From an archaeon (GTDB taxonomy: Archaea > Nanobdellota > Nanobdellia > Pacearchaeales > GW2011-AR1), in assembly GCA_018693315.1 (NCBI GenBank), contig JABHLR010000004.1, forward strand, positions 1-34,137: a stretch of DNA of 34,137 bases. Direction: 5' to 3'. Below, piece after piece: positions 10,067-28,641 of the stretch; the stretch's first letter is position 1; every line of letters begins with the position of its first letter. Made by a program: the position numbers and the translations under genes. The notes under the pieces are model-generated. The model had not been told where the DNA came from. It saw nothing but the letters and a program-made list of their open reading frames with translations, and did not search any database.

Positions 10067-10669
10067 ATGCCAATCACAGACGAAGAAGCAAGCAAAATCA
10101 AAGAACAGCTCCTAACGCAATTAGATAATTTCCCCGAAGACAAAAGAGAACAAATCCAAACCCAAATCAATTCTATGACAAACGAACAAATCGAAGCCTT
10201 CGTCAAACAAAACCAACTAACACACCTAAATGGCGGATGCATATTCTGCTCGATAATCGCAAACAAAACTCCATCCTACAAAATCGCAGAAAGCCCTGAC
10301 GGAACTGCAATCCTAGAAATCAACCCCCTAAGCAAAGGCCACGCGCTAATAATCCCAAAAGAACACCTCGAAGAAATTCCAGAATCGATAAGATCGCTAG
10401 CGCAACAAGTCGCAACAAAACTAAAAGAAACATTCAGTCCTAACGACGTCCAAATCAACGAACTAAAAATCATGGATCACGCATTACTAGAAGTTGTTCC
10501 AATCTACGGCGACGAAACAGAGAAAAAACAAGCAACAGAAGAAGAGCTCAAATCACTCCAAAATCAAATAACAGGAGAGGCTAAAGAAGAAACCTCAGAA
10601 ACCGAAGAAGACGTAGAAGAAGACGAAGGGGATGAAGAAGTCCCAGTTCTACCTCCAAGAATTCCTTAA
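10067..10669 (+). CDS. HIT-family-like protein with a helical N-terminal extension and acidic tail; catalytic HxHxH degenerate
   Basis: GGCIFCSIIANKTPSYKI...GTAILEINPLSKGHALIIPKEH matches the HIT core. The motif region reads MDHALLEVVPIY. Confidence 0.75.
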   Translation: MPITDEEASKIKEQLLTQLDNFPEDKREQIQTQINSMTNEQIEAFVKQNQLTHLNGGCIFCSIIANKTPSYKIAESPDGTAILEINPLSKGHALIIPKEHLEEIPESIRSLAQQVATKLKETFSPNDVQINELKIMDHALLEVVPIYGDETEKKQATEEELKSLQNQITGEAKEETSETEEDVEEDEGDEEVPVLPPRIP

Positions 10670-11487
10670 ATCAAATTAGCTATCAGACCTAAAACATAAT
10701 CCTTCAAAAATACATATCCCAAAAACGCAATCAGAAACGCTGGCACAAATGGCAACCCATCCTTAATCTTAACCTTCTTTTTCCCCTTCAATAATTTAAT
10801 ATCATTCAGCGACAAACCATCCCAATCGGCCTTAATCGTTTTCCCTTTAGCTTTAATGTCATCAACAAGCCAATCCCCTTCCCTCAACTCCTTCCCAGAA
10901 ACAACCTTTATCATCGAAACAGCCTCAAGACCCTTCGCAAAAACATAAAGCCCCATTGTCAAAACAGCAATTATTCCAATCACTAAAAATATAAAACTAA
11001 CAAATCCCAACGCCATCACAATAAGTCCAGCAACCAATGCCCACCCCTGACCACGAGAAACTTTTTGCATCTCCACATTCACCTTCTTGAAATCCTTAGA
11101 ATACAAAACAAAAGAATACAACAACCCATAAACAGAACCAGACAACATCAAAAACAAAAGAAAAATTCCAATGTTAGTTAACGTCAAGTAAAAAGTTGTC
11201 CCAACAAAAAATGCCGTCATAGCCACCAGCAACTTCGCATCGCCACCAGCAAAAACTCTACCATAATAAAACAAATTCATAAACGCAAACATAATCACCA
11301 ATGCAAAACCAGCACGAAAAATAATCGTAACATCCTTGCTAAATATCGCACTATAAAAAACAAAAACAAAACTCGCAACCAATAAAAACAAGTTCAACCA
11401 GTTATCGACCTCTCTCCTCTTTAAATCCTGCAAACTAGCAACAACAATCCCAATCAAAAACAGCCAAAACAAAAATCCAAACACCAT
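10666..11487 (-). CDS. Type IV prepilin/prearchaellin peptidase (A24 family)
   Basis: Multi-TM protein with QDLKRREVDNWLN and FAGGDAKLLVAM (the GxGD aspartyl protease motif). ATG at 11487 overlaps the upstream TGA. Confidence 0.85.
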   Translation of the reverse strand: MVFGFLFWLFLIGIVVASLQDLKRREVDNWLNLFLLVASFVFVFYSAIFSKDVTIIFRAGFALVIMFAFMNLFYYGRVFAGGDAKLLVAMTAFFVGTTFYLTLTNIGIFLLFLMLSGSVYGLLYSFVLYSKDFKKVNVEMQKVSRGQGWALVAGLIVMALGFVSFIFLVIGIIAVLTMGLYVFAKGLEAVSMIKVVSGKELREGDWLVDDIKAKGKTIKADWDGLSLNDIKLLKGKKKVKIKDGLPFVPAFLIAFLGYVFLKDYVLGLIANLI

Positions 11488-11666
11488 CAATATTTCTTAT
11501 TCTTCTTTTTAGATTTCTTTACTTTCTTCCCCATCTTGTCTTTCTCATCATCAGTTTCAGAAACATTGTGAGTTCTAAACTGCCCACCCCTCTTATACCC
11601 CCGAGCCAACCGCTTCCTCTTCAAGTCCTTCTTCGTTTTCCGCCGATCATTTCCTCCATAATCCAT
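11487..11666 (-). CDS. Small very basic protein (59 aa), unknown function, translationally coupled to the prepilin peptidase
   Basis: MDYGGNDRRKTKKDLKRKRLARGYKRGGQFRTHNVSETDDEKDKMGKKVKKSKKKNKKY*. 180 nt in frame, too short for the ORF track. Its TGA (11489-11487) overlaps the next ATG (11487-11485). Confidence 0.65.
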   Translation of the reverse strand: MDYGGNDRRKTKKDLKRKRLARGYKRGGQFRTHNVSETDDEKDKMGKKVKKSKKKNKKY

Positions 11667-12214
11667 TATACAACCGTCACCTCAACTTTTCCATTAACCT
11701 TCCTAATCTCATACATCCTCTCAAACTCAAAAGTAAATTCAACAGGAAAATAATTTTTATTTGCCTTGGGAACTCTGGATGAAAGTTTTTTCCCAACCTC
11801 TGTTCTGCCAAAAACCAAAGAATTCCCATCTTTAGAAGTCAACCCCTCCGGATAAAGAACATTATCAAAAAAACCAGGCGCTTCATTAGTAAGCCTATCC
11901 TCAACAGTCAAATTCTTAAAAATAAACCCCTTCATTTTATCGTCGGATTTCACCGCGGCCAGAAAATTAACCCTAAACTCCTTATCAAAATCACCAGATC
12001 CAAAATTAACACCCTTAGCAGATTCCTTAATCAGCTCAACCTCTCTCATCTCAAAAACAGACAATCCATCTACAACATCCAAAACCACAACTGGCGAAAC
12101 CAACTCATTCGGCAAATCCTGACCCTGCTGATAACGAACCATAAAGACAACCCCGCAAAGTATCAAGGTTATAACAACAAGATACAGCCCGAAAAACATC
12201 CCACGCTTATTCAT
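11666..12214 (-). CDS. Pilin-like protein (class III leader-like N-terminus)
   Basis: MNKRGMFFGLYLVVITLILCGVVFMV...: short basic leader ending in G, followed by a hydrophobic helix. Confidence 0.7.
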   Translation of the reverse strand: MNKRGMFFGLYLVVITLILCGVVFMVRYQQGQDLPNELVSPVVVLDVVDGLSVFEMREVELIKESAKGVNFGSGDFDKEFRVNFLAAVKSDDKMKGFIFKNLTVEDRLTNEAPGFFDNVLYPEGLTSKDGNSLVFGRTEVGKKLSSRVPKANKNYFPVEFTFEFERMYEIRKVNGKVEVTVV

Positions 12215-13017
12215 CAACATTCGCTCTTCCTCCTATACGCAATCCTATAAGTCTTCCCGCCATAATTTACACTCGATTCAACCACTCCAGTAAAACCAAC
12301 CATAGAACTAAAATCCTTCATACTATCAAATTTCACACTACCCTCAGTTATCAAACCGAAAGGAGCCTCAAAGATATACTTATCAGAAAAGGTGCTCAAA
12401 ACTCCTTGTATCTTCACCAACAAATTCCTACTCTCATCAAGAAGATTGTCAACATCCTTATGCAAAAACCTAGTCTCAGAAGTATGGCCGGCCTTGTAAA
12501 TATAACCAGGACCCTCGTTTTGAACAACATAATCTAAAAAACTTCTATCAGAAAAACTTCTATCAACCAAACCATCATAAGCTCTAAACTGCAAAACAAT
12601 CGCGTTCTGAATATCCACCTCCTTCCCTTTAAATTCAATTTCAGTTTTCAAAATCTCAGCCAACTCATCCTTAAGATTAGCATATTCTCCGCGCCTTCTT
12701 CTCTCATACCGCTCAAGCACCTTATCAATATCCTCGCCACTCGCAATAGACTTCCTGGCAACACTCAGCTCATCAAAATTCCTCATATAGACAAAAACAT
12801 TATTTATCCCAACCTCACATTCGTCGAGAACATTGACCCCACTCTTTTGCCCATCGGTCCACTTAACAAAATAAGATCCAAGCGCAAAAATCAACAAAAT
12901 TATTACAACCGCGACAATCGAAATCAACATCGTTATAATATTCCCAACACCTTTTTTTTGAGAGCGACCTCGAAAAAAACATGGAGGATTTATCAATCCT
13001 ACTTTTTTATTAACCAT
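12214..13017 (-). CDS. Pilin-like protein with a long compound leader; paralogue of 16649..17698
   Basis: MVNKKVGLINPPCFFRGRSQKKGVGNIITMLISIVAVVIILLIF...; C-terminus YGGKTYRIAYRRKSEC. Confidence 0.7.
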   Translation of the reverse strand: MVNKKVGLINPPCFFRGRSQKKGVGNIITMLISIVAVVIILLIFALGSYFVKWTDGQKSGVNVLDECEVGINNVFVYMRNFDELSVARKSIASGEDIDKVLERYERRRRGEYANLKDELAEILKTEIEFKGKEVDIQNAIVLQFRAYDGLVDRSFSDRSFLDYVVQNEGPGYIYKAGHTSETRFLHKDVDNLLDESRNLLVKIQGVLSTFSDKYIFEAPFGLITEGSVKFDSMKDFSSMVGFTGVVESSVNYGGKTYRIAYRRKSEC

Positions 13018-13513
13018 GTTGCATCAAAACCTCCACACTCATATCTGCATCAATCTTGGCACCACCCCTATCAAAAACAACAGGATAACTTTTCTTAAAA
13101 TACCCCGGCTCATATTGCTTAATATCATCACTCAACTTAACCGAACCCGCCTCATAAAGCTCCCTGACCCAAAGCGAACCAGAATCTCCTTGATACAAAC
13201 GAGCCAACTCACCACCACCGCCACTAAAAATAACTCTCGCAAAAATCCTGTCAAAATTCCCCGAGAAACCGCAATAAGAAAGCACCTTATCCAATTCACT
13301 GTTGGGATAAGAACCAAATTCAAAAACCCCATCCAAAGCCAAACAGTCAACAATATTTTTCCCAACTATTGCAGACCCAGAATCCCTAACATTAATATCG
13401 TGACTATAAAAAATCGCGACAATCCCAAAAATAACAATCGCAATAAGAGCAACAACAGCAACCCTAACTATCATCATAACCCCCTCACCCAAACCTCCCC
13501 TTTTATTAATCAT
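13010..13513 (-). CDS. Pilin-like protein
   Basis: MINKRGGLGEGVMMIVRVAVVALIAIVIFGIVAIFYS... Confidence 0.7.
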   Translation of the reverse strand: MINKRGGLGEGVMMIVRVAVVALIAIVIFGIVAIFYSHDINVRDSGSAIVGKNIVDCLALDGVFEFGSYPNSELDKVLSYCGFSGNFDRIFARVIFSGGGGELARLYQGDSGSLWVRELYEAGSVKLSDDIKQYEPGYFKKSYPVVFDRGGAKIDADMSVEVLMQHG

Positions 13514-13863
13514 GAAACGCTCACCACAAATTTAGTATCCTCATCCCTAACATCGACGGAGTATCTAGTAAAATAAGGATATCCCTTCAACGACTTAAAA
13601 TTATCAACACCAACAAAAACATTACCATCCCTCAAATCAACACTATGGACAAAACCACCAATATTCTTCTTCGGAATAATAAACTCCATTCCGGGCACAG
13701 CAGAATCAAGCAATAACGCAGTCTGCTTTTCAAGAATCTGCTGGCGAACACCTCGAGAATTCGCAGTCCCAGCAACAGCAGTAACAAGCAACGCCATAAT
13801 AATCGCTATCAAAATTATATGAATCAACGCCCTCCCCATAAGATCCCCTTTTTTATTCATCAT
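13510..13863 (-). CDS. Pilin-like protein
   Basis: MMNKKGDLMGRALIHIILIAIIMALLVTAVAG.... The start was trimmed from the ORF-track start to the NKKG leader. Confidence 0.7.
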   Translation of the reverse strand: MMNKKGDLMGRALIHIILIAIIMALLVTAVAGTANSRGVRQQILEKQTALLLDSAVPGMEFIIPKKNIGGFVHSVDLRDGNVFVGVDNFKSLKGYPYFTRYSVDVRDEDTKFVVSVS

Positions 13864-13864
13864 C

Positions 13865-14905
13865 CTAAGCCGGGATTGCAAGATACTCATCGCAACCAAT
13901 TGTTTTTAGATAATCGGGAGCCACTGCAATAATCTTTCTTTGTCTATTGGCCTCTTTGATAGCCTCTTTGGCGGCGGCCTCATTTCCCCAAAAATTCCAA
14001 TCAAGAGTAGCAGCACCAGCAGCCCCTGCGCCAATAACAGCCAGAGAAGCACCAAGAGTAAGGGGAGCAAAAATTACACCGGCAGCCACAACAGCCCCTG
14101 CGCCAATAATACCGCCGGTACTTGCACTGCCCAAATAACTCCCACTCAATCCCGAAACCGCCCTTATCTTATAAACCAAAAGTGTATCATCACCAACCGG
14201 CGACAAGTCATCCTGTATTTCAAAATGCTGAATCCCTGAAGTCTCATTAGTCCAAAGCGGCAAATAATCATCATAAGTCCCCTTGGACCCAGGAACGTCA
14301 TGCGTCTTATAATACTCAATAAACCTAATGTTAAAACCTAACATAAAATCATGATCAGGCCCCTTCAAAGAAGAAACCTTTTTCTTACTCACTTCCTCTC
14401 TTTTTTTCTCAATCTGCTCCCTAGTAAACCCACTCCCTTCATAATGCTCAGCCGACGCCTTAGCTGTATAATGCAACCGAGCAAAAACCACGCAATAAGA
14501 GGTAGTAGCATTAAATCCCTTATGAACAAAATCAAACTCACCACGACCAAACATATACCACCCAGACGCAACCGCCTTCGATATTTTTTCATAAATCTCA
14601 TCAGGATCCGCACTATCAAACGTCACAACCTCCGTCCTACACTTCAAAGGAAACAGACCCTTCATATCAGTTCCAAGCTCAAACAAATCCGGAGAATTCG
14701 CCCTCAAAACAACACTCTGCCTACACTCCTGCCAATCAAGCTCATCCGAAGTAAAATACTCAAAAAATAAAAAATAAATGGAAAGTGACAAAACGATCAA
14801 TCCCAATATCAACGCCAAAATATAACCTCGCCACACCGCCTTTTTTTGAGATCGATCTCGAGAAAAACGCAAAGGACTCAGCGATCCCACTTTTTTATTC
14901 ACCAT
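13865..14905 (-). CDS. Pilin-like/membrane protein with the compound leader and a Gly/Ala-rich hydrophobic segment near the C-terminus
   Basis: MVNKKVGSLSPLRFSRDRSQKKAVWRGYILALILGLIVLSLSIYFLF...; GGIIGAGAVVAAGVIFAPLTLGASLAVIGAGAAGAATL. Confidence 0.65.
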   Translation of the reverse strand: MVNKKVGSLSPLRFSRDRSQKKAVWRGYILALILGLIVLSLSIYFLFFEYFTSDELDWQECRQSVVLRANSPDLFELGTDMKGLFPLKCRTEVVTFDSADPDEIYEKISKAVASGWYMFGRGEFDFVHKGFNATTSYCVVFARLHYTAKASAEHYEGSGFTREQIEKKREEVSKKKVSSLKGPDHDFMLGFNIRFIEYYKTHDVPGSKGTYDDYLPLWTNETSGIQHFEIQDDLSPVGDDTLLVYKIRAVSGLSGSYLGSASTGGIIGAGAVVAAGVIFAPLTLGASLAVIGAGAAGAATLDWNFWGNEAAAKEAIKEANRQRKIIAVAPDYLKTIGCDEYLAIPA

Positions 14906-14979
14906 AATAAAACCACCAAAAACAACTTAATAAAACTAACCATCAATAGAAATATAAACCCAAAATACCCCGATTTTTT

Positions 14980-16515
14980 ATGAAAGGCCTCCTGGGAAAG
15001 CTCTTCTCGGTGAAAGGGTTTCTCCTAACAGCAGCAGTCGCAACAACAATAGCAGTCGCACCTCTCGCAATAAAACAAGCAAGCCCAGAAAAACCAGTTC
15101 CAAGAAAAATCGGCGATTTCAGATATCACACCGAGGTCACAAACATCTCAGCAATAAACACTCAATCATCTCCAAAACAAGGATTAAGACAAGCCAACGA
15201 AAATGGAGTTACATCTGTCGGTAATCACGGCACCCCAGACCCAAACGAAGCGGACCGCTCAATATACGTAGACATATCAATCGAAAACGCCCCGGAAGCA
15301 ATAACCATAAAACATTCCCATCACCCAAAAAGCAATTTATCAATAGAGAAAAAAGTCGACGAACACCTAACAGAAGATGCAAACAACACCCACACCTACC
15401 TCATCCTACCAAAAGAAATAGAAACAGGATTATTCACTCAAACAATAAGACGGATCAACACCAAAAACCCAGAAGGATTTTCAGTAGAAACAATTCCAAC
15501 AAAAGACTCAAAACTAAACGCAGCAATAAGAAAATACAACAGGCTATTCGCAAGCAACCCAAACCAGTCAGACCCAGAAATAAGTGAACTAGAACAAGCA
15601 GTAAGAAATTCAGCAAAACTTTTAGGCGGCAAAAAAGAAAAGATTATAGAATTTGGAATAGATGGATTCAAAAGAGTGCTAGAAAAAAACGAAACCTCAA
15701 GAAGAGATTTTCTAAAACAAAAATACGGCAAAGAATACCAAGTGATCAAAGCACCAATACAGGCATCAAACAAAAGAGAAGCAGGAAGCAACCCAATCGG
15801 ACGAACAACAATCTTAGAAATAGATAACTCCAAACTCGAAGAGACAAAAGAAGGTTACATCGAAATCCCACAAATAACATTCTCAAGAAACGACAAAAGA
15901 GCAGGATTACAAAAACTGGCTTACAAATTCGAAATAAGAAAACCGAAAGAAGCCCCTTTTAGAAAACAACTACCTTTAGATAAAGTCCTTCTCGGCCCGT
16001 GGGAATCCATCGGAGAATCATATCATGAAAACAATGCAGCAAGATTTACAGTAAATGAAAATTCAACAATAGTAATAATTACACCAGATAACCATCCTAT
16101 CATCAACGCCACAGCCTCAAATATCAAAGATCCAGATGCGCACAAATGGTACAACAACAGAAGAACTTTTGAAGTAATAACTCAGGATTTGGTTTGCATG
16201 GGTAAACACTTATACAAAAGAAAAAACGCGCCAACCCAAAATATTTCAACAGCCAAAAGACTACTTGGAAGATGGGACGAAGATAGCACAAAAGAAACCA
16301 CATATGAAATATCCAAAGATCATCTTATATACACAAACGGAACAAAAAGAGAAAGGCACACAATAAAAAAACCAATAAAAAGAATCGGTGAAACTTACAT
16401 CATTACCACAGAAAGAAAAAACGGAACAGAAAGAGAACTTATAGCCACGCAAACTGGAAAAAATAAAATGAAACTCATCTTAGGACATAACGACCATTCA
16501 TTAACAAGAAAATAA
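14980..16515 (+). CDS. Secreted or membrane-anchored protein of unknown function with a C-terminal tandem repeat
   Basis: N-terminal hydrophobic segment (FLLTAAVATTIAVAPLAI); repeats LLGPWESIGESY... and LLGRWDEDSTKETTYEIS.... Confidence 0.7.
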   Translation: MKGLLGKLFSVKGFLLTAAVATTIAVAPLAIKQASPEKPVPRKIGDFRYHTEVTNISAINTQSSPKQGLRQANENGVTSVGNHGTPDPNEADRSIYVDISIENAPEAITIKHSHHPKSNLSIEKKVDEHLTEDANNTHTYLILPKEIETGLFTQTIRRINTKNPEGFSVETIPTKDSKLNAAIRKYNRLFASNPNQSDPEISELEQAVRNSAKLLGGKKEKIIEFGIDGFKRVLEKNETSRRDFLKQKYGKEYQVIKAPIQASNKREAGSNPIGRTTILEIDNSKLEETKEGYIEIPQITFSRNDKRAGLQKLAYKFEIRKPKEAPFRKQLPLDKVLLGPWESIGESYHENNAARFTVNENSTIVIITPDNHPIINATASNIKDPDAHKWYNNRRTFEVITQDLVCMGKHLYKRKNAPTQNISTAKRLLGRWDEDSTKETTYEISKDHLIYTNGTKRERHTIKKPIKRIGETYIITTERKNGTERELIATQTGKNKMKLILGHNDHSLTRK

Positions 16516-16518
16516 TAA

Positions 16519-16647
16519 TCATCCTGAAAATTTAGAAATCAATTTGACAAATCCAAAAACAACAGCCGCCAAAATCAACAACCACAAAACCCAACTCAAA
16601 GTTTTATCAGTAGAAACCTGCCCCTTTTTGTTTCGCCAAGTTACCAT
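16519..16647 (-). CDS. Very small pilin-like protein (42 aa)
   Basis: MVTWRNKKGQVSTDKTLSWVLWLLILAAVVFGFVKLISKFSG*. ATG at 16647; its first 58-bp upstream ORF-track extension overlaps the neighbouring gene. Confidence 0.65.
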   Translation of the reverse strand: MVTWRNKKGQVSTDKTLSWVLWLLILAAVVFGFVKLISKFSG

Positions 16648-16648
16648 T

Positions 16649-17698
16649 TTATATACCCCGGCCCTCATTCCAGCCACTCGTTTTAACATTAGGCATTCCA
16701 TTGTTATCACAACTCGCCAACCTCCGATAATCAACAGAAAAACGCCTATTTCCATATTTCCAAGATATAAATGTGGACGCACCAGATGAACCTGGGTTCG
16801 ATTTATACCTAGCAAGCCTATTCGTCAAACCTGGAAGCGCAGACCCAATTCCATTTTCAGTAACATAACCCAATGGCGTAATAATATCATACTGGCCACA
16901 ATACTGGTCCAAAATAACCTTAAGTTTTGCAGAAACCTCCTTCGCTTCCGCATGCAAAGCACTTTCCTTTTTGTTATCATAAATATCCATATAACTACCC
17001 CCTCCAGCAATAATACCCGTACCTCTGTTATTATCCAAATAGTTATTAGTAGAACGCTCATCCTCCAAATTAGAATAACCCTCAAGTACCGCCCCAACAG
17101 CACGATCAACACTCATCACCCTCCCACGAAAATTAATTTCAGTTGCCAAAATCTTTTTCAAATCATCATCAATTTTTCCAGCAATAACAGCCACCTTCCC
17201 AGTAACACCAAGATCATAATAATCCTTAGCCGGCTCCTTTATTATCCTAACCTTCTCTCCCCTAGCAATCGACCACCCATCAGAATTATTTCCAATCTTC
17301 GCAGGAAATTTCAAGCTCACGCAATCATTACATTGTGAATCCGGCCCTTCGACCAAACAAATACAAGCATAATTTCTCTGAATCCCCGACGTAAAAAACT
17401 CATTGGCTCCCTCGGAATACTGTGACTGCCCACCAAAATAAATTAAAAAATACTCCCTTTTGGCTTCCCTATCATCTGTATCCTGTGGCTGCCACATAGA
17501 AAAATCAGCAAACCCAACATCGTCAGCCTCTGCGATAGCCGCGACAAAAGCCTCCATATAAGATTCCGAAGTTTCTTCTCCCCGATGGAACAAAGGTGTG
17601 AGAACTGCAACCATCAAAAATATAATCAGAACAACTCCAGCCACAGCCAAAATCACACTCAAAATCTGCGTTATTGTAAATTTACCGTCTTTTTTCAT
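16649..17698 (-). CDS. Pilin-like protein; paralogue of 12214..13017
   Basis: MKKDGKFTITQILSVILAVAGVVLIIFLMVAVL.... Shared blocks: LATEINFRGR / LKTEIEFKGK, FG(L/Y)ITEG-type PLGYVTENG, and YGNRRFSVDYRRLASC / YGGKTYRIAYRRKSEC. Confidence 0.7.
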   Translation of the reverse strand: MKKDGKFTITQILSVILAVAGVVLIIFLMVAVLTPLFHRGEETSESYMEAFVAAIAEADDVGFADFSMWQPQDTDDREAKREYFLIYFGGQSQYSEGANEFFTSGIQRNYACICLVEGPDSQCNDCVSLKFPAKIGNNSDGWSIARGEKVRIIKEPAKDYYDLGVTGKVAVIAGKIDDDLKKILATEINFRGRVMSVDRAVGAVLEGYSNLEDERSTNNYLDNNRGTGIIAGGGSYMDIYDNKKESALHAEAKEVSAKLKVILDQYCGQYDIITPLGYVTENGIGSALPGLTNRLARYKSNPGSSGASTFISWKYGNRRFSVDYRRLASCDNNGMPNVKTSGWNEGRGI

Positions 17699-18774
17699 AT
17701 TATTCTTCCGCAATTTTCCATTAAAAGATCATCCCTAATCTTAGCATAATCCTTCATGCCATCAACATAACTCTCAGGAACATAAAGATAATATTCCTTA
17801 TCTATATCAAACCTCTTCCATGCTTTCCCCTCAAACTTATAAAAAGTATAACTTGCAGTAATTGCATTCCCATTAAAGTCTTTCGTCTCCTGAGACTCAG
17901 ACACAACCCCATATTTTTTACCACCAATCTCTGTAGTCACCATGGGCCTACCAATTTTAATAGGTGGTCTTTCAAGATTCAAATAATAAACCTTCTTCTC
18001 AATAAAAGTCAACCTATTAAAATAAAGGGCACCCTTAAGAGCATTATAAGTCTCATGCCTAGTTCCCCCCTCTTTAATAACAGTATTACCACACGGCCAA
18101 TGTTCCCACTTATCAGTCTTATGCACATATTCCCAAAGGCAATAATCATCGTCTTCTTCAGCTCCCCAATACCAGGTAGCCCATTTTTCTCCCACCATAG
18201 AACCAACGCCAGCATGACCCAACCATCCAACATAATCAGTTTCAGTATCTCCCTCCGAATAAGTAACCTCCAAATTTTTAACCTTCTCAACCATCGCCAA
18301 ATAAATATTCCTCTCAACTTCCTCCGCCTCACCAAGCGTCTTGTAATCCAACCTATAATATTTCCTATCCTTCTCCGGCAAATCACTTCTCCAAATAGAA
18401 AAATTAATTCCGTTCTCATCACGATCAATCAAATAAGTCCCATCCATATCCTTAGAGCCACCCAAATTAGCCCGACACCAAGTCTTACAAACCTTCACCT
18501 CAGTATTATCATTATCAAACTTAAAATAATCCAAAATCTCAGGCCCATTAATAAATTTCGAAACCTTCTCTATATAACACCGTTCAATAGGATCATCATC
18601 ATCCCGCAACCCAAGCCAAATAAAAAACTCATCAACCTTACCTCCAGTCTGCTCAAACAAAGTCCCCATCTTTTTCGGCCCAGCAATAATAACTATAATC
18701 AAAATCACCGCCAACAAAACATAAATAATCACCTTAGAAAGAGACAGCTGCGTCGCACCTCTCTTCGCAATCAT
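17695..18774 (-). CDS. Pilin-like protein with a large Cys-containing ectodomain
   Basis: MIAKRGATQLSLSKVIIYVLLAVILIIVIIAG... Confidence 0.7.
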   Translation of the reverse strand: MIAKRGATQLSLSKVIIYVLLAVILIIVIIAGPKKMGTLFEQTGGKVDEFFIWLGLRDDDDPIERCYIEKVSKFINGPEILDYFKFDNDNTEVKVCKTWCRANLGGSKDMDGTYLIDRDENGINFSIWRSDLPEKDRKYYRLDYKTLGEAEEVERNIYLAMVEKVKNLEVTYSEGDTETDYVGWLGHAGVGSMVGEKWATWYWGAEEDDDYCLWEYVHKTDKWEHWPCGNTVIKEGGTRHETYNALKGALYFNRLTFIEKKVYYLNLERPPIKIGRPMVTTEIGGKKYGVVSESQETKDFNGNAITASYTFYKFEGKAWKRFDIDKEYYLYVPESYVDGMKDYAKIRDDLLMENCGRII

Positions 18775-18911
18775 CGCCCAAACCTCAAAACATTCCTTAT
18801 AGAATCCAACATCTCACCGCCCCTACCCGAAAGCAAAAGAATAACCCCGCCAACCAAAACTACAATTATAACAATGAGAATCAACAACTTAACAATCTGC
18901 TCCATTTCCAT
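18771..18911 (-). CDS. Small single-TM protein (46 aa), pilus-locus component
   Basis: MEMEQIVKLLILIVIIVVLVGGVILLLSGRGGEMLDSIRNVLRFGR*. Overlaps the start of the next gene. Confidence 0.55.
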   Translation of the reverse strand: MEMEQIVKLLILIVIIVVLVGGVILLLSGRGGEMLDSIRNVLRFGR

Positions 18912-19021
18912 AATATCACCTACACAAAATACAACAAACCAATTAATAAACATTCCTAAAAAGGAACGCAAAAAATAAAAAAATAAAAAAGAGGGAATAG
19001 CCCTCAAAAATTAATAACTTG

Positions 19022-19351
19022 TTAACAAGTTATCGGAGTACAATCTGTAACATAACCTGCATCAGCAAAAGATGAGCAATTTCCTGGGATTCTACCAGAA
19101 TCACTATCATTTATGATAATAGTCCTACTCTGATTACAAACACCAAATCTATTATCTTGCTGGCAAGCCAAAGTACAAGAAGTCTTCATGGTATCAATAT
19201 TAACATCGCCTCCACCAAGTCCTGTCACTTTATCCCAAAGGTTCCCCCATCCGGTGCTAAAACCATAGATCAAGAATACAAGAACTACCAATCCAAGAAC
19301 TATAGCGATAATAGTCCCCAAAGTCATCTGCTGTCCTTTTTTATTTTCCAT
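19022..19351 (-). CDS. Candidate major pilin (class III leader, Cys-rich ectodomain)
   Basis: MENKKGQQMTLGTIIAIVLGLVVLVFLIYGF...; six Cys in the ectodomain. A dedicated promoter-like element and a strong SD lie upstream. Confidence 0.75.
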   Translation of the reverse strand: MENKKGQQMTLGTIIAIVLGLVVLVFLIYGFSTGWGNLWDKVTGLGGGDVNIDTMKTSCTLACQQDNRFGVCNQSRTIIINDSDSGRIPGNCSSFADAGYVTDCTPITC

Positions 19352-19357
19352 TATTTT

Positions 19358-19418
19358 CACCTCCCTTACAACTATTCATCAACGGGATATTTCTATAAGC
19401 ATTCCCCATATTATAAAC
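19358..19418 (-). promoter_or_regulatory. TATA-like box plus strong Shine-Dalgarno (GGGAGGTG) for the candidate major pilin
   Basis: Minus strand: AGGTTTATAATATGG (~19407-19420) ... GGGAGGTG (19365-19358) then ATG at 19351. Confidence 0.6.
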
Positions 19419-19426
19419 CTTCCTCA

Positions 19427-21601
19427 TTATGTTAACCCCGCCAACGCAACAGCACCAATAACACTCAAACCAATAATCGCACCGGTCGCAACAACCGCAT
19501 ACAAAATCATCGTCACCTTCAAATTCTTACCAGTCTGCGCCGTCGCCATCAAAGGATCACGCCCAGCTTTTATCGTAGTCAAAGTCCCAGTCAAAATAAA
19601 CACAATCTCAATCAAATAAATCCCAACAACAATCTGCAACCAATAAGTCGGAATCATTTTCGTAATATCAAAAATCGCAAGGATCCCCTCAACACCGCCA
19701 GCCCCCGCCAAAGCATTAGCACCAGTCGTCGCCCCACCCTCAAACATATTACTCAAACTCCCCAAAATCGTTGTAATCATCCCCGCCAAACCAACAATAA
19801 TCCCGGAAAGCAACGGCGCCAAAAAAGTCATATTCGATTTCATATCCGAAATAATATCCGCCAACAAATCATTCAACCTATCATTAATTTTCTTAATATT
19901 CTTAACATAATCAGAAATCGCCATCAACGACCTCGCCGCAACCTGCAAACCTTTCTTCGTCGACTCAACCAAAATCCTCATCGAAGTTGCAATCAACTGC
20001 GACGGATAAAAAATCACAGCACCCCTCTTCGGATCAAACAACGCCCGATCCAAACTCATCCCAAGCTGCTGAATATTCTCATTCACAATCCTAAAGAAAC
20101 CCTCCGTCGAAGTTCCCTTCGTCGACTCCATCGTCTTCGCCAAAGCAATCTCCGCCGGCAAACCATCACCAATCCGATTCCCAAGCTGAAACAGCGACGA
20201 CGTAAACTCCTTTTCAACTTCCTTATATTTCTTCCTCGTCTCCAAAATTTCCTTAGTCTTAGAATTATAAACAATAATAAAAACCATAGCAATAGAAATC
20301 GGAATAAACAAACTCATCAACAAAGCCAAAGCGCCAAACGGCCCACTCACAACTCCAGTCGCATCAGTCATAATTCCAAACGCGCCAGACTCCCCCAAAA
20401 ACCCAAGCCCCAAACTCGACCAAGTATAATCCCTCGTCGTCCCCAACCAAAACGGCACATTCGTATATCGCCACAGCAACGGAATCAAACCAATCACAAA
20501 AAACGGAAACGCAATCAAAATCGCCTTAAGATAAGCAGCATTACTCTTGTACTTCGGATACAACGGATTCTTCTCCAGCAAACTCGACTCACCATAACCA
20601 CCCGGCCGCTTCATCATCACACTCCCCGTCATATACAAAACCATAAACGGCACCAAAATATTGAAAATCAAAAACACATGATACCACTTAATCGAACCAC
20701 CCATCATCGTCGACGCCAAAGGCAAAATCGCCAAAGCCAGCGTCGGCAAAACAATTCCCAACATATAAATATTCGTCAAAGGCGCTTTCACATTATGCGT
20801 ATATTTCAACATCTTATCATAAACACCGTCGAGAATAACCTGCAAACTCTTCTCCAAAACATTAACTCTCCGCCCTTCATCAGGCTCATACAAACTCGAC
20901 TCAATCAAATGAAACGCCTCAACAAACTCCATGCTATAATCCTTCCAACCCTTCAAATAATCATCAACACTATCCTTTATCGTCGAAAATTTCCCAACTT
21001 CAACATCCCAAAAAACTTTCCTAAAATCCAAACTTAAAGGCGGTTGCAAATGCTCAGCAGCAAACGAAACGGCCTTCTCAAAATTCGAAGTATGCTTCAT
21101 ATAAATCACAATATACAAAATCGCGGGAACCATCTGCGACGACGCTTTCAAACGCCACTTCATCGCCAAACGATCGGGAGCTTTCGACGAATAAAAAAAC
21201 AAAAAGATAGCCAACAAAAAAACCAAAAATAAAAACGTAAGTTGAAACCCTCCACCAAGCAACCAAATTCCAACCAAAGAAAAAACTCCAGCAAACAAAG
21301 TCAAAAACAACAACATCGTCGCGAAAACAACAACTTCACTCGGCGTCACATTCAAATGCGCAGTCGCAATATTTTTCTCAAGATTCTCCCTATCCTTCTC
21401 ACCAACCCTAATCTTAAACAAACCCCCCATCGACTTACACCACCTCTCATAACGCGAAAACTCCGGCAACATCGACGCACGGAATCTCTCATAACTTTGC
21501 GAAAACCCCTTCCCCTGCGCCGACGACTCATTAAAACCCTTCATCTCCGACTCTATCTTCGCCCCATACTTCCTCAAAATATCATCAGTACTCGGTGCCA
21601 T
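19427..21601 (-). CDS. tadC: TadC/FlaJ-type pilus assembly membrane protein (T2SS F family), duplicated architecture
   Basis: 725-aa multi-TM protein with two similar halves, including LFQLGNRIGDGLPAEIALAKTMESTKG and SFAAEHLQPPLSLDFRKVFWDVEVG. Confidence 0.82.
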   Translation of the reverse strand: MAPSTDDILRKYGAKIESEMKGFNESSAQGKGFSQSYERFRASMLPEFSRYERWCKSMGGLFKIRVGEKDRENLEKNIATAHLNVTPSEVVVFATMLLFLTLFAGVFSLVGIWLLGGGFQLTFLFLVFLLAIFLFFYSSKAPDRLAMKWRLKASSQMVPAILYIVIYMKHTSNFEKAVSFAAEHLQPPLSLDFRKVFWDVEVGKFSTIKDSVDDYLKGWKDYSMEFVEAFHLIESSLYEPDEGRRVNVLEKSLQVILDGVYDKMLKYTHNVKAPLTNIYMLGIVLPTLALAILPLASTMMGGSIKWYHVFLIFNILVPFMVLYMTGSVMMKRPGGYGESSLLEKNPLYPKYKSNAAYLKAILIAFPFFVIGLIPLLWRYTNVPFWLGTTRDYTWSSLGLGFLGESGAFGIMTDATGVVSGPFGALALLMSLFIPISIAMVFIIVYNSKTKEILETRKKYKEVEKEFTSSLFQLGNRIGDGLPAEIALAKTMESTKGTSTEGFFRIVNENIQQLGMSLDRALFDPKRGAVIFYPSQLIATSMRILVESTKKGLQVAARSLMAISDYVKNIKKINDRLNDLLADIISDMKSNMTFLAPLLSGIIVGLAGMITTILGSLSNMFEGGATTGANALAGAGGVEGILAIFDITKMIPTYWLQIVVGIYLIEIVFILTGTLTTIKAGRDPLMATAQTGKNLKVTMILYAVVATGAIIGLSVIGAVALAGLT

Positions 21602-22296
21602 CAACTCTTCCTCTCAATATATTTAATACACTTATCAATCAACAAATCAAAATCTTTTTTCTTCTTCCATTGCTTAGTAATGTAACTCCTCAGTTTTTTA
21701 TGAGGTTCATAGCCTTGATCAACAGACCAGTACAGCCCAACAGCGCCCTCACGTAACAGCACCGTTAGCGCCTCCTTCAAATCTTCCGCCTTTTCTCTCC
21801 CAATCTTCTCAATAACCATCCCCATATAATTAGCAAAAAAATGAAAATGCATTAACTCATGAGCAATCGTTCCCAATGTCCCAGAAACACTCGAGAAAAA
21901 ATTAATCAAGAAAAAAGAATTTTTCTTTTTATCATTATCATAAAAATAAGGACACCTACAGGCAACAGTCGGATAAACAAAACATCTCGAAATATCAAAC
22001 TCTTTTCCTGTAAGTTTAAACAACCAATCAAAATAACTCTTCTCAATCTTCCTCCAACCCGCTTCAACTGCTTTCAAATAAATCTCAATCAAGCCAGAAT
22101 TATGAATCGTCTCATAAAACCCTCCAATCTTCCCCTTAACCTTCTTAAACTCGACATCTTTGCAAATCTCAATAACTTTCGAAGGCATATACTTACTAAA
22201 ATCATGCCAACTAGAATCCTCATTACATGTCTGCCAAACATTATGCAAATCCCTCCCACGATTTACCTTAAAGATTAACTTTGGATTCTTCATCAT
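21601..22296 (-). CDS. Putative zinc metalloprotease (HELMH)
   Basis: GTIAHELMHFHFFANYMG...LKEALTVLLREGAVG: HExxH plus a downstream Glu typical of gluzincins. Stop overlaps the tadC ATG by 1 nt. Confidence 0.7.
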   Translation of the reverse strand: MMKNPKLIFKVNRGRDLHNVWQTCNEDSSWHDFSKYMPSKVIEICKDVEFKKVKGKIGGFYETIHNSGLIEIYLKAVEAGWRKIEKSYFDWLFKLTGKEFDISRCFVYPTVACRCPYFYDNDKKKNSFFLINFFSSVSGTLGTIAHELMHFHFFANYMGMVIEKIGREKAEDLKEALTVLLREGAVGLYWSVDQGYEPHKKLRSYITKQWKKKKDFDLLIDKCIKYIERKS

Positions 22297-22843
22297 TCAC
22301 CTCAAAAATTTTACCATGTCCAGGAACAATAAAATCAGCCATCTTCAAAATCTTCTCGCGATTCTTCATAATCTCCTCAACATTCCTCTCAAAAGAAGGC
22401 ATCTTCTTCGCATCCGAATAAAACAAATCACCAGCGACACAATAAACCTTTCCTTTCTCCCTAAAAACCACAGAACAACTATCACTCGAATGCCCCTGGG
22501 TAGAAATCACTTCAACATTCCTCCCAATCTTCAAAGGCAACCTCTTCCAATAAAATTTTTTCTTCAAAACACCTCCAGAATTAATAAAATCCGCATTCTC
22601 AAAAAAAGCACCATTCCAAACATGATCCAAATGAGAATGGGTGCTCACAATATGTGTCACATCCTTTGGCGAAACTCCTTCCTTCTTCAAGCTTTTTTTT
22701 ATTTCATCAAAAAATCCCCGTCCTCCACAATCCACAAGAATTATTTTTTTACTTTCCTTAATCAAAGTCACAGACGAACAAGCACTTATCCAACTCTTTT
22801 TATCAGACTTTGCAAAACCTACCTTTATCTGTTTAATCATCAT
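22268..22843 (-). CDS. MBL-fold metallo-hydrolase
   Basis: THSHLDHVWNG (HxHxDH), TQGHSSDSCSV, VAGDLFYSD, VPGHGKIFE. Confidence 0.88.
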   Translation of the reverse strand: MMIKQIKVGFAKSDKKSWISACSSVTLIKESKKIILVDCGGRGFFDEIKKSLKKEGVSPKDVTHIVSTHSHLDHVWNGAFFENADFINSGGVLKKKFYWKRLPLKIGRNVEVISTQGHSSDSCSVVFREKGKVYCVAGDLFYSDAKKMPSFERNVEEIMKNREKILKMADFIVPGHGKIFEVNDEESKVNL

Positions 22844-23076
22844 TTACCTCTTTTAAGCTTCTCAAAAACAGCCAAATCAATAAACTGCTTCCGGTTCGCA
22901 TACTTAAATTTATTCTCTTCCAGATTAATAAACTCTTCCACCCTCGCCAACAACTCAGAACTAACCTTCACCGCAGCGTCCCGAGCCCTCACCTTTTTCT
23001 TCTTCCCCAGAATCTTATCCTCAATCTTTTTCAAACCATCCAAATTAATCTCAATCGGCGCCTTACTCTTAACCAT
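22840..23076 (-). CDS. Ribbon-helix-helix-like transcriptional regulator (78 aa)
   Basis: VKVSSELLARVEEFINLEENKFKYANRKQFIDLAVFEKLKRGK has the strand-helix-helix pattern. The ATG abuts a palindrome. Confidence 0.55.
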   Translation of the reverse strand: MVKSKAPIEINLDGLKKIEDKILGKKKKVRARDAAVKVSSELLARVEEFINLEENKFKYANRKQFIDLAVFEKLKRGK

Positions 23077-23118: not shown

Positions 23119-23478
23119 TCACACAAACCTTCCACGAAGTATCCCATGACCAACGGCCACACGAGAAATCGCCTCACAAAACCCCTGATAACACTCACTA
23201 TCCCCAGACACTTTAGGCCCCTCAGTAAGCCTATTCGCCCAATCCCTCGCAGCAGAATAAACATCAACAGCCCCCCTCTTCAACCCAGAAAGACAATCCG
23301 TCAAAACATTCAAAACATAAATATCCTTAATCGCCCCCATCGAGAGATTATCCAAAAGACCAGCCAAAAGACCAACCGACTCACCCTGTCTACCCTCGGC
23401 AATCTCTTCAGCAGCAGAATCAGCCAACCCAGAAAGGTCCCAGTTAACAAATTTCATTTCAAAAACTTCACTCATCAA
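23119..23478 (-). CDS. Hypothetical protein (119 aa)
   Basis: ORF with its own TATA-like element about 20 nt upstream. No family recognised. Confidence 0.6.
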   Translation of the reverse strand: MMSEVFEMKFVNWDLSGLADSAAEEIAEGRQGESVGLLAGLLDNLSMGAIKDIYVLNVLTDCLSGLKRGAVDVYSAARDWANRLTEGPKVSGDSECYQGFCEAISRVAVGHGILRGRFV

Positions 23479-23495
23479 ATCCGGAACAAAACATT

Positions 23496-23513
23496 CTTTA
23501 TAAAAATTTATAT
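23496..23513 (-). promoter_or_regulatory. TATA-type promoter element, copy 1
   Basis: ctttataaaaatttatat, identical to 23938-23955, upstream of the 23478 start. Confidence 0.5.
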
Positions 23514-23527
23514 CCTAAACATAAAAA

Positions 23528-23935
23528 TCAAGCACAAGACACACAGAGACCAAGCCCAGGAATATATTCTCCATCTGGAGCAACAACATTATTGTAAAGC
23601 GATTCAGTCGCATCACGCTTAACCCCCTCAACATCCAACGCCCTCCCCTCCATCTCACACGTCCTCGCCATCCTACCAAAACGCATTATATCCTCATACG
23701 CCGTAAAAACAGAATCCATCCCGCCAATCGCCCATCTCACACTAGAATACTTCTTGACAAAAGCCCCAAAATCCTTATGCAACTGCGTCCGAGCAACTCT
23801 CAAATCTCTAGAACTAAAATCAGTATGAGCAATAACAGACAAAGCCCCCTGAACCTCCCAAGAAAGACTCCTAAGAGTATCAGCTCCACGAAAAACCCCA
23901 CCTGTAGTATCTAACATCCCACCAACAACAAACAA
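23528..23935 (-). CDS. Hypothetical protein (135 aa), C-terminal CVSCA
   Basis: ORF preceded by the same TATA-like 18-mer. No family recognised. Confidence 0.6.
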   Translation of the reverse strand: MFVVGGMLDTTGGVFRGADTLRSLSWEVQGALSVIAHTDFSSRDLRVARTQLHKDFGAFVKKYSSVRWAIGGMDSVFTAYEDIMRFGRMARTCEMEGRALDVEGVKRDATESLYNNVVAPDGEYIPGLGLCVSCA

Positions 23936-23937: not shown

Positions 23938-23955
23938 CTTTATAAAAATTTATAT
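23938..23955 (-). promoter_or_regulatory. TATA-type promoter element, copy 2
   Basis: ctttataaaaatttatat directly upstream of the 23935 start. It partly overlaps the 3' end of the ATPase gene. Confidence 0.45.
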
Positions 23956-26217
23956 ATTCAATCTTTTAGATTCCTTCTCCAACCACCGCTTCCACTCAGG
24001 AAAAACCCTATCGCTCGTCGGCAAACCAATCTCAGCAGTAACCTTATCCGAAATCTGATGAAACGCATTATTCGACTTCACAGTAAAACCACCCTCCAAC
24101 AACTCCGGCATCTTAACCCTCTCCGCAAAATCAACAGTCTCCTGCTTAATCTGCTGCCTCAAAACAACATTATCCCAAACCGCATCCCAATCCCCAGCCC
24201 AACCCTTAACATTCGCCGCAATATCCTTAATAATCTCAGAATCCCCATTAATCAAATCATCAGTCGGCTTCATCAAATCCTCCTCAACATCATACTTCAT
24301 CAAATCAACAAAACCACCCTCCCTCAAAGGATCCTCAGTCCAATGCTTCCGAACCTCAGTAATCTGCAAAACCCGACGCCACGAATGCAAACCATCAGCA
24401 GACTTAATCGGATTCGCAACAACAATCAAATCAGTCGCCTTAAACGAAGTCACAGGAACCCCCAAATCATTAACAACCCTATCAAAAACAGAATACGGCG
24501 AACCACCATGAATCGTACCGGCAACAACATTCGCCAACGCACCAACCCTCATCGCCTCATACAAAGCCTTCGCCTCAGCCGACCGAATTTCCCCAACAAT
24601 CAAACTCGAATCACCCAAACGCAAAGAAGACCGAATCCCCTCCTCGGCCGCAACCTCAGTCGACTCTCCAGCCAAAGCACTCCGAACCTTCATCGACAAA
24701 ATATCATAATCCAATTTCCTCATCGCTGTAACCGGCAACTCCAAAGTATCCTCAATCGTAATAATCCGATGCGACGGCATAATCTCCAACAATAACGAAC
24801 CAAGCAAAGACGTCTTACCACTCGACCTAGTCCCAGCAACCAACATCGTCCTCGCCCCATCAATCATAAAACTCAACAAACCAGCGCCAAGCGAATCAAT
24901 CATCTTGTTCTTAATAAACAGCGGCAACGTCCACGGCTTCGACCTATGTCGACGCAAAGTATAAGCCAAACCTCCAGCAGAAAGTGGCTGCTGGATAATC
25001 GCAACCCTCGCACTCACATCACCAAGCTCCAAATTCGTATCCAAAATCGGATTAGCCTCATCCAAAGCCCGACCAGAAGTCATCCTAAATTTCGCAGCCC
25101 AAGAATCAGCATCCTCAGAACTCGGAATCAAATTCGTAACACACTCATCAAAATCATTATGCCTAACAAAAATTGGAGAAAGCGAAACCGGCGCATTAAC
25201 CATAATATCCTGCAAATTCTCGTCCTCCAACAAAACTTCCAAAACCCCAAAACCAATCGTATGCCGAACCAAAATCTTCGCCAACTTTGTCAAATCCCCA
25301 AAACTCAAATTAATATTTTTACTCCCCGCCAAATCACCAATCAAATCCCGAGCAACATTAAAAAAAACCTGACGAGTCCGCTCAGGATCATTAAACTCCT
25401 CAGCCGTCGGCCGATGCTCAATCAAAACATTCCTAGCCAAATTCAACAACATATGATGATCCTCATCCAAAGTATATTCCGGCGGCGACAAATGATAAAC
25501 TAACTTCGCCTTGTTCGGCCGACGAAAAATCGTAACCAAACTCTCGTCGCTATCCTTAGCAATCGAATACTGCTTCACAATCTCAGCGTCCTCAGGAACC
25601 CTCGCAACCATCCGCGTAAAAGTAAAATTCGGCATAATATCCGCCCGAAGAACCTCCGCATAAATATCCCTATCCCCAAGATTATAAGAATCAAACGACA
25701 ACTTCAACCTCTTAATCAACAACAACTCATCAAAAAAACCAACAACCCTCTCGATAATCTTAACATACTCCCCAACATCCTGACCATTCTCCAACTCCGC
25801 CCTCTTCGAAAAAAGCATCCCCCTCAACTCTCGATAAGCCTTCACCGGATCCGTCGGCAAAACCTCATTAATAACATGATTAAAAAAAGCGTGCGCCTCA
25901 TAATACGAAGCCCCCAAATGCGACAACTTCTCAGCCGAAACAATCTTCTCCTGCTTCGCCAAAAAATCAACAAGATGCGCAACCTCAACCAACATCTTAA
26001 CCTGCCCAAAATCATGCGAATAATTCCTCTGCTGCACAAAAACAATCCTCGCAACATTCGGATCCTCTTTCAAATTATCAATCGCCCGACCCATAACCTC
26101 AGCAGAATCAATCAGCGACGGCACAAACGCAGCCCCAAGATAATTCACATACATCACATTCTCCCCGCTCTCACTAACAACCTCATAAGAATACAACGGA
26201 GTATCTGCCTTGAACAT
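23950..26217 (-). CDS. tadA: Type II/IV secretion ATPase (TadA/FlaI/CpaF superfamily)
   Basis: LVAGTRSSGKTSLLGSLLLEIMPSHRIITIEDTLELPV (Walker A), LRLGDSSLIVGEIRSAEAKALYEAMRVGALANVVAGTIHGGSPYSVFDRVV. Confidence 0.92.
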   Translation of the reverse strand: MFKADTPLYSYEVVSESGENVMYVNYLGAAFVPSLIDSAEVMGRAIDNLKEDPNVARIVFVQQRNYSHDFGQVKMLVEVAHLVDFLAKQEKIVSAEKLSHLGASYYEAHAFFNHVINEVLPTDPVKAYRELRGMLFSKRAELENGQDVGEYVKIIERVVGFFDELLLIKRLKLSFDSYNLGDRDIYAEVLRADIMPNFTFTRMVARVPEDAEIVKQYSIAKDSDESLVTIFRRPNKAKLVYHLSPPEYTLDEDHHMLLNLARNVLIEHRPTAEEFNDPERTRQVFFNVARDLIGDLAGSKNINLSFGDLTKLAKILVRHTIGFGVLEVLLEDENLQDIMVNAPVSLSPIFVRHNDFDECVTNLIPSSEDADSWAAKFRMTSGRALDEANPILDTNLELGDVSARVAIIQQPLSAGGLAYTLRRHRSKPWTLPLFIKNKMIDSLGAGLLSFMIDGARTMLVAGTRSSGKTSLLGSLLLEIMPSHRIITIEDTLELPVTAMRKLDYDILSMKVRSALAGESTEVAAEEGIRSSLRLGDSSLIVGEIRSAEAKALYEAMRVGALANVVAGTIHGGSPYSVFDRVVNDLGVPVTSFKATDLIVVANPIKSADGLHSWRRVLQITEVRKHWTEDPLREGGFVDLMKYDVEEDLMKPTDDLINGDSEIIKDIAANVKGWAGDWDAVWDNVVLRQQIKQETVDFAERVKMPELLEGGFTVKSNNAFHQISDKVTAEIGLPTSDRVFPEWKRWLEKESKRLNI

Positions 26218-26307: not shown

Positions 26308-26697
26308 ATGGCAGAACAACAAGAAACAGGTGGTCAAGTTCAATTTCTCCTAGCCGACTTCAACACACGACTTAGAGACATCGACGAACGAAACCGACTA
26401 ATCAGAGAACGTGTCCTCCTCCTCGGAAAAAACCTAATCTCATCACGACAAGACGTTGAAGACGAACTCAAAGAAATCAAAAAAGACAACATCGAAATCA
26501 AAGCCGACCTCGAAAAACTGAAAAAAACATCAAGTAGCCTACTAACCGAATTCAACAAATTCGTAAAACGAGAAGAAATCGTCCTCGTCGAAAGAATGCT
26601 AAAAGACTTTCAACCCTTAGAATTCATGCGAAAAAAGGACGTTGAAGAACTAATCGCAAATAAGTTAAAAATAAATACTACAAAAACAACAATTTAA
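26308..26697 (+). CDS. Coiled-coil protein, possibly FlaC/D/E-like pilus/archaellum accessory protein
   Basis: FLLADFNTRLRDIDERNRLIRERVLLLGKNLISSRQDVEDELKEIKKDN...; divergent from the ATPase gene and followed after 1 nt by another coiled-coil gene. Confidence 0.55.
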   Translation: MAEQQETGGQVQFLLADFNTRLRDIDERNRLIRERVLLLGKNLISSRQDVEDELKEIKKDNIEIKADLEKLKKTSSSLLTEFNKFVKREEIVLVERMLKDFQPLEFMRKKDVEELIANKLKINTTKTTI

Positions 26698-26698: not shown

Positions 26699-27466
26699 AT
26701 GCCAACCCTAGAAAAAGTGATGCAAATGCAACAACAAGGAAAAACAGACGCAGAAATCTCGACACAGTTACAAAACGAAGGTGTACCCGCAGCAGAAATA
26801 AATGATTCTTTTAATCAAGCAAAAATAAAAAACGCAGTATCTCCACCAGGCGCAGCAGCCCCAGAACAAGCTCCAATGGAAGGAATGCAGGCATCAATCA
26901 TGCCAAACCAACCAGAACCAACAGCACAAACTCCACCCCAAGCTCAACCAATGACACAAGAGCTACCTGCAAGATTAGACGCAGCAGCACAAGAAGCACA
27001 AGCACAACAATTCCCACAACAACAAGCAGTAGCGCCCCCAGAAGTTTACCCGCCACAGGAAGGATTCGCGCCAGAACAACCTCAAGACGATTACTACCAA
27101 CAAACACCGCAAGCTTACTCACAACAAGATTACTACGCGCCACAAGGCGGAACAGACACAGAAACAATCTCAGAAATCGCAGAACAAGTCACAACAGAAA
27201 AACTAAACGACTACAAAAAGAAAGTCGGAGACATAGCATCATTCAAGAACAACATCCAAGACAAAGTTAACGACATAGACGACCGACTAAAAAGAATTGA
27301 AAACAGCATCGACAAACTCCAACAAGCAGTCATCGGAAAAATCGGAGAATTCGGAGAATCAAACGCAGCAGTTCACAAAGATCTCGATAACCTCCACGGA
27401 ACAGTCGCAAAATTAATGAACCCATTAATCGATAACTACAACGAGCTAAAGAAAATTTCTAAATAA
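26699..27466 (+). CDS. Gln/Pro-rich coiled-coil protein, possibly FlaC/D-like
   Basis: C-terminal IQDKVNDIDDRLKRIENSIDKLQQ...HKDLDNLHGTVAKLMNPLIDNYNELKKI, loosely resembling the 'LYELVsxxiNPFV' pattern of FlaC/D. The middle is low complexity (P/Q/A). Confidence 0.55.
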   Translation: MPTLEKVMQMQQQGKTDAEISTQLQNEGVPAAEINDSFNQAKIKNAVSPPGAAAPEQAPMEGMQASIMPNQPEPTAQTPPQAQPMTQELPARLDAAAQEAQAQQFPQQQAVAPPEVYPPQEGFAPEQPQDDYYQQTPQAYSQQDYYAPQGGTDTETISEIAEQVTTEKLNDYKKKVGDIASFKNNIQDKVNDIDDRLKRIENSIDKLQQAVIGKIGEFGESNAAVHKDLDNLHGTVAKLMNPLIDNYNELKKISK

Positions 27467-27940: not shown

Positions 27941-27978
27941 AACAAATCAACAGAAAAAGCGTTTATATATTTATGGAA

Positions 27979-28494: not shown

Positions 28495-28544
28495 GCAATC
28501 TTAAAAGAATTCTTATTTATATATGTTTTGACAATCAAACAATC

Positions 28545-28641
28545 TTAATTCTTAACAAGAAAGTTCGCCGTGTAAAAATTTTCGACGTGTGCAAGTGCAC
28601 ATAAGAAAATATTTTACCAAGAAATTTTCGTTAAGAATTAA
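28545..28641. other. Long imperfect inverted repeat / structured intergenic element (nested hairpins)
   Basis: Outer arms ttaattcttaac (28545-28556) / gttaagaattaa (28630-28641). Middle gtaaaaattttc (28572-28583) / gaaaatattttac (28605-28617). Apical tgtgc-aagt-gcaca (28588-28601). Confidence 0.75.

Follow-up and report, generated by a model that had tools for sequence, protein, structure and literature searches.

An operon of conserved pilin-like gene families in Pacearchaeota that probably encodes a type IV filament machine

How DPANN archaea keep hold of a host is still an open question; the operon described here offers concrete parts to test for such a grip. It lies in a stretch of 34,137 nucleotides (contig JABHLR010000004.1 of assembly GCA_018693315.1, positions 1 to 34,137; hereafter the window) from a metagenome-assembled genome of 674 kb with a completeness of 87%, whose owner is a tiny and probably host-dependent archaeon. 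Ten genes on the minus strand, named P1 to P10, each encode a protein with a single hydrophobic helix at the N-terminus, and are located between the genes of an A24 prepilin peptidase (11487-10666) and a TadC-like protein (21601-19427). What does such an array build? We read the operon, with a probability of roughly three in four, as encoding a Pacearchaeota-specialised version of the archaeal type IV filament machine, in which P1 is the major pilin and P6-P10 form a tip or priming complex, most likely for attachment. The reading as a fibre machine, taken alone, is very likely; attachment, the preferred function, is by itself an even bet. The surface filament that a first-pass annotation of the sequence had proposed is well supported by the parts and by their context.

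Along the minus strand, the genes run from the assembly ATPase through two open reading frames (ORFs) seen only in this window, a small conserved protein, two further window-only genes, and the TadC-like protein to P1-P5; after a plus-strand intruder, the order continues with P6-P10, a gene named X, and the A24 peptidase, beyond which lie two plus-strand genes and the gene of replication protein A. Ten helix proteins do occupy the interval between the peptidase and TadC as the first-pass annotation had claimed, but they share it with X, an eleventh minus-strand gene, and with a foreign plus-strand gene of 511 codons (14980-16515) that separates P5 from P6. The description of the ten genes as short fails for P3, P4, and P6, which encode about 350 residues each (359, 349, and 346), while P2 and P5 are tiny (46 and 42 residues) and barely more than a helix. 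The start-stop overlaps are confirmed: seven junctions (P2/P3, P3/P4, P7/P8, P8/P9, P9/P10, P10/X, and X/A24) overlap by 1-8 nt.

The array recurs across an archaeal order. Relatives were taken from GTDB, where their labels read Candidatus Pacearchaeota, Nanoarchaeota, or simply archaeon; the 121 loci around TadC consist of two sets that overlap in genomes, and the counts given here are of loci and not of independent genomes. The profiles of P2, P3, and P5 drift onto hydrophobic helices and were left out, so that seven robust families, P1, P4, and P6-P10, were counted. The order P4-P6-P7-P8-P9-P10 is kept in 67 of the 72 loci that hold at least four of these six genes, a strong conservation of synteny that extends to the peptidase, TadC, and the ATPase, as had been anticipated. 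In the 63 loci with all six genes, the median junctions are -3 nt at P7/P8, -10 nt at P8/P9, and -10 nt at P9/P10, where the ORFs begin at the first possible start and the overlaps are perhaps slightly overstated. Between TadC and A24, 35 complete loci contain a median of 9 pilin-like genes, with a range of 6-11. In a whole-genome search, P8 was present in 65 of the 74 same-order (Pacearchaeota) genomes and absent from all 19 class-level relatives; in two genomes (G021 and G051) the block is absent beside TadC and P8 is present elsewhere. These class-level relatives combine the ATPase and TadC with different arrays, which likewise bear leaders, and the principle is therefore wider than the P families.

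Nine of the ten proteins in this genome carry a prepilin-type leader of the form K-(K/R/D)-(G/A). The leaders were scored with a strict rule of our own, [KR]x0-1[GA] just before the first hydrophobic helix, after an earlier, looser rule had been dropped because multi-helix membrane proteins satisfied it. Under the strict rule, 523 of the 562 members (93%) of the seven families have a leader, against a background of 106 (23%) among 455 other ORFs that are 120 residues or longer and have an early hydrophobic helix; the shared leader that the first-pass annotation had described also recurs in the orthologues. As short sequences with a high content of K and G, the leaders still satisfy the rule in 56% of cases when the pre-helix residues are shuffled; composition alone therefore accounts for part of the signal, and the support for the motif comes mainly from its recurrence over divergent orthologues and from the A24 gene in the operon. 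Most relatives of P2 have a leader, which the P2 of this genome lacks.

The genes that flank the array resemble those of an assembly machine. The ATPase (23950-26217, minus strand; 755 residues) is of the TadA/FlaI/VirB11 type, with a Pfam T2SSE match of 7.5e-16 and an extra N-terminal region of about 290 residues; it matches CpaF (4.9e-27), 2oap, a type II secretion protein of the archaeal GspE type (4e-26), and FlaI (4.9e-16) in the PDB, and the TadA family of NCBIfam at 2.3e-36, which is under the cut-off of that family. The peptidase, of the FlaK/PibD type, matches Pfam Peptidase_A24 (7.5e-9) and the FlaK structure 3s0x (3.8e-7), with the QD and GGD motifs of both catalytic regions aligned. 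The TadC/FlaJ-like platform protein (724 residues), found in 90 of 93 relatives, is divergent, and the window copy has no match in Pfam, NCBIfam, or PDB searches. It has direct distant matches (E 2.4e-6 and 2.6e-4) to FlaJ-like genes adjoining other T2SSE ATPases in two genomes (G064 and G067), hhalign against an ArlJ-type profile gives an E-value of 8.5e-5 at a probability of 60, and its class-level homologues show weak T2SSF matches, which together suggest a homology to FlaJ, if only a remote one. Two plus-strand genes adjoining the ATPase, CC1 (26308-26697) and CC2 (26699-27466), recur in 84 and 80 of the 121 loci; their products are judged to be coiled-coil proteins from the sequence and from weak matches to coiled-coil families.

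These parts suggest how the machine would work. The A24 peptidase would cleave the K-(K/R)-(G/A) leaders, and the VirB11-type ATPase and the TadC-like protein would push the exposed N-terminal helices from the membrane into a helical fibre. P1 (19022-19351), with the leader MENKKG followed by QQMTLGT and a Cys-rich ectodomain whose cysteines are conserved in the alignment, is the likely major pilin: it is small and apparently disulfide-rich, has a strong ribosome site and a terminator-like hairpin of its own (19005-18991), and is present in more than one copy at some loci. P6-P10, translated as one coupled block of near-fixed order, would act as minor pilins, priming the fibre and coming to lie at its tip, and the variable P3 and the larger P6 are candidate contact subunits. 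Conserved cysteines in both P1 and P6 are in keeping with the filament reading.

None of P1-P10 has a Pfam or NCBIfam match above cut-off, and Pfam searches with 39 P1 and 52 P6 members gave weak, scattered matches only. All ten are encoded on the minus strand. P2 (18771-18911) is a helix-only peptide of conserved position. P3 (17695-18774; leader MIAKRG) has its place taken by ORFs of about 430-640 residues in relatives, and ten proteins tried in a test of P3 as a known adhesin gave no Pfam family above cut-off. P4 (16649-17698; leader MKKDG) has a family in 83 loci, with a leader in 76. P5 (16519-16647; leader RNKKG) is again helix only, with positional homologues. P6 (13865-14905), defined by its alignment and its predicted structure, has a Cys-rich core in which the columns C61, S64, and C89 are conserved, as is a CW...G.G motif. 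P7 (13510-13863; 117 residues; MMNKKG) aligns with a mean column identity of 33%, P8 (13010-13513; 167 residues; MINKRG) is characterised by its structure model and distribution, and P9 (12214-13017; 267 residues) by its alignment. P10 (11666-12220; 184 residues; MLMNKRG) has a family in 71 loci, with a leader in 67. X (11487-11666), which adjoins A24, is a highly basic peptide of 59 residues with family members in 61 loci; 60 of the 61 members are without a hydrophobic helix. A recent duplication of one family into P1-P10 was considered and rejected, since the ectodomain profiles of the seven families give no convincing pair (best P6-P7, E 0.012 over 25 columns). The sole related pair, apart from that profile test, is P4 and P9 of the window, which have in common a C-terminal domain of about 155 residues (26% identity, BLAST E 1.2e-12 over 160 columns); both proteins are much shorter in same-genus relatives.

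The leaders of P6 and P9 contain an insert of about 17 residues, MVNKKVGSLSPLRFSRDRSQKKA in P6 (14905-14833, minus strand) and MVNKKVGLINPPCFFRGRSQKKG in P9 (13017-12945, minus strand). Such inserts are in-frame, measure about 45-60 bp, and were also found in other loci (L152:12498-12564, L102:16511-16575, L119:6129-6193, L079 at about 17530-17650, which has a tandem duplication, and L190, L191, L192, and L201). They encode, for example, NKKGQNKSFSLCNFFPKNRRG or FKRVKSKIFHYDFLEKNHKA, and the DNA has a hairpin of a T-run and an A-run. A covariance model built from five copies had its four best new matches in 93 genomes (34-46 bits) all in leaders of prepilin-like genes, and the weaker matches were mixed. 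The insert is either a small palindromic element tolerated in a cleaved leader or an extended leader, and the hairpin may be a by-product of the near-complementary codons of F and K.

The AlphaFold2 model of P8 (mean pLDDT 89.9) contains helices at residues 8-37 and 42-58 and strands at 90-98, 101-109, 137-149, and 152-164, and this predicted arrangement of a long kinked N-terminal helix and an antiparallel sheet broadly resembles a type IV pilin in outline. The model of P6 (mean pLDDT 70.6) has helices at 24-51 and 53-70 and an alpha/beta domain, while residues 254-303 are essentially unmodelled (pLDDT <50). The expected relation to pilin structures is thus seen in the outline of P8 but not in any Foldseek match, and this is among several points that weigh against a filament: the best of 426 matches to P8 has an E-value of 0.086, with no pilin among the 50 listed and no significant PDB match, and for P6 Foldseek gives no PDB match and no pilin. 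The label of P1 as a putative major pilin is drawn from features of the gene and protein, and its place is not fixed; P1 comes ahead of P6 in 28 loci and behind it in 51, preceding the block in the genus of the window but following P10 in most other loci. P2 and P5 consist of a helix only, and the homology of the TadC-like protein is weak at its hhalign probability of 60. In addition, the same genome has a second, more canonical type IV pilus-like locus on another contig (G000:C6:1073-5757, L153), with a 525-residue ATPase, two halves of a FlaJ-like protein (415 and 276 residues), the first of which is present in 34 of 37 relatives searched, and a leader-bearing protein of 242 residues; this locus could make the visible fibres.

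The operon might instead encode a short pseudopilus or surface-assembly machine, as in type II secretion or the archaeal bindosome, in which the same parts would push proteins out or retain them at the surface of the cell and make no long extracellular fibre. The many diverse minor-pilin-like subunits for one candidate major pilin would suit such a machine, as would the coupling of P7-P10, which resembles the pseudopilin tip operons generally known from type II secretion, and the bindosome ATPase BasE is among the remote NCBIfam matches; the major-pilin features of P1 and the lack of a conserved secretion partner gene in the block make it unlikely nonetheless. Some archaeal binding proteins carry an A24-type leader, and P1-P10 might likewise be surface proteins that merely bear it and stay single membrane-anchored molecules. 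The missing fold match to pilins and a possible second membrane contact in P6 would fit this explanation, but across the whole order the genes are tightly linked to those of the ATPase and the TadC-like protein, and this linkage and the coupled translation leave it quite improbable.

A DNA-uptake pilus serving the nucleotide needs of a reduced cell draws on the replication protein A gene, which is close downstream in many loci, and on the DNA import by pili proposed for other DPANN (PMC9563170). Replication protein A, however, is a housekeeping neighbour, and ComEC (PF03772) was found above cut-off in none of 57 genomes including this one, while 10 of 14 controls have it; because of this absence, competence is disfavoured and we consider it very improbable. 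An archaellum was also rejected, as no KaiC-type (ArlH), FlaF, or FlaG match occurs among the window genes scanned, and CC2 has a weak FlaC match (0.034).

As for the function of the proposed filament, the fibre would most likely serve attachment to a host or another surface. Size fractionation places Pacearchaeota among the DPANN most firmly attached to hosts, and ultrasmall cells, not identified as Pacearchaeota, have been imaged with pili that extend into hosts (PMC7906910). A hydrophobic stretch of P6, rich in Gly and Ala and located at roughly residues 257-300, supplies a specific, testable idea of a tip that acts on a membrane. An uncharged hydrophobic run of at least 30 residues occurs in the C-terminal part of 26 of 76 distinct P6 proteins, including that of the window, and in none of the 387 proteins from the other six families. 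The runs are 41% Gly plus Ala and are enriched in GxxxG (79 versus 59.1 ± 5.8 when shuffled, with one of 500 shuffles reaching 79). Within the alignment the stretch occupies a single place but shows no conserved sequence, and it is missing from the closest P6 proteins of the same genus that are shown there. Its role could be that of a second membrane anchor, of a buried core, or of a tip that inserts into a membrane. The bolder idea that P6 is a tip pilin whose GxxxG-enriched, Gly/Ala-rich hairpin inserts into the host-cell membrane, letting the fibre anchor in or pierce it, and that this element was gained and lost repeatedly across Pacearchaeota, strikes us as rather doubtful.

Other genes of the window are recorded here in their own right. 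A giant surface protein of at least 2829 residues (1-8487, minus strand), which runs off the window, contains six Laminin_G_3 stretches (9.3e-124) and an Ig-like match, and is a second candidate adhesin near the operon. Three adjoining multi-helix membrane proteins (27467-29129, minus strand), mutually similar by eye (FLLVFVVVFA..K.K..G) and without a Pfam family, occur in 47, 68, and 70 of the 121 loci. The span drawn in the first-pass annotation reached to 23076 and took in three genes past TadC: the 78-residue protein (22840-23076, minus strand), RHH-like by eye only and without a match in a Pfam search, is conserved, a homologue lying near TadC in 22 of the 121 loci, but the MBL-fold and HExxH genes are essentially without relatives at this place. 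The genes inserted in the operon (14980-16515 on the plus strand; 21601-22296, 22268-22843, and 23119-23935 on the minus strand) encode the 511-residue protein with a signal-like N-terminus, the HExxH protein (AHELMH), the MBL-fold hydrolase, and two small ORFs, and have essentially no relatives among the 121 loci; the MBL gene has relatives in two of these, and the others were seen in this window only. A GC skew of about -0.5 across most of the window (1-34137) marks an extreme strand asymmetry, so strong that plus-strand genes were missed by a gene caller that relies on codon use and had been trained for the most part on genes of the minus strand.

Genome surveys found the ATPase and platform in some of these DPANN groups and left the pilins unnamed (PMC4858521, PMC9563170), and in the 2016 census the cognate pilins of a nanoarchaeal ATPase clade could not be identified (PMC4858521). 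Compared with the archaeal type IV pili of that census, the present operon has the same kind of ATPase, FlaK-type peptidase, and class III-like leaders, and probably a related TadC-like platform; at least five minor pilins are known in some systems, but the pilin families here escape Pfam and NCBIfam (PMC4858521). In the case of the cluster-2 DPANN, Pacearchaeota included, two conserved type IV pilus loci with coiled-coil proteins were described by Hamm et al. 2024 (PMC11291902); the CpaF-type ATPase, TadC, and adjoining coiled-coil proteins are alike, and CC1 and CC2 fit, whereas that text describes the ATPase, TadC, and coiled-coil proteins, with FlaF and PilA in locus 1 only, and gives no block of about ten pilin-like families. 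Makarova, Wolf, and Koonin 2019 (PMC6393860, Fig. 2A) drew the same inference for some DPANN, taking the dark-matter genes that adjoin the ATPase and TadC and encode signal peptides for diverse pilins; the text of that paper covers some genomes and names no families, while here families, order, distribution, and sequence features are given. The Myxococcus Kil/Tad pilus, in which several minor pilins are proposed as a variable contact tip and exchangeable minor-pilin tips are known, is a bacterial Tad system with a partner like a type III secretion system, and offers an analogy only (PMC12075869). The kind of system and the inference of pilins beside TadC were thus already known, and what our sequence comparisons appear to add is a set of defined conserved families, their order and distribution, and the P6 stretch. 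With seven families in fixed order across a whole archaeal order, the "dark matter beside TadC" becomes named parts that can be searched for, expressed, and sought in proteomes.

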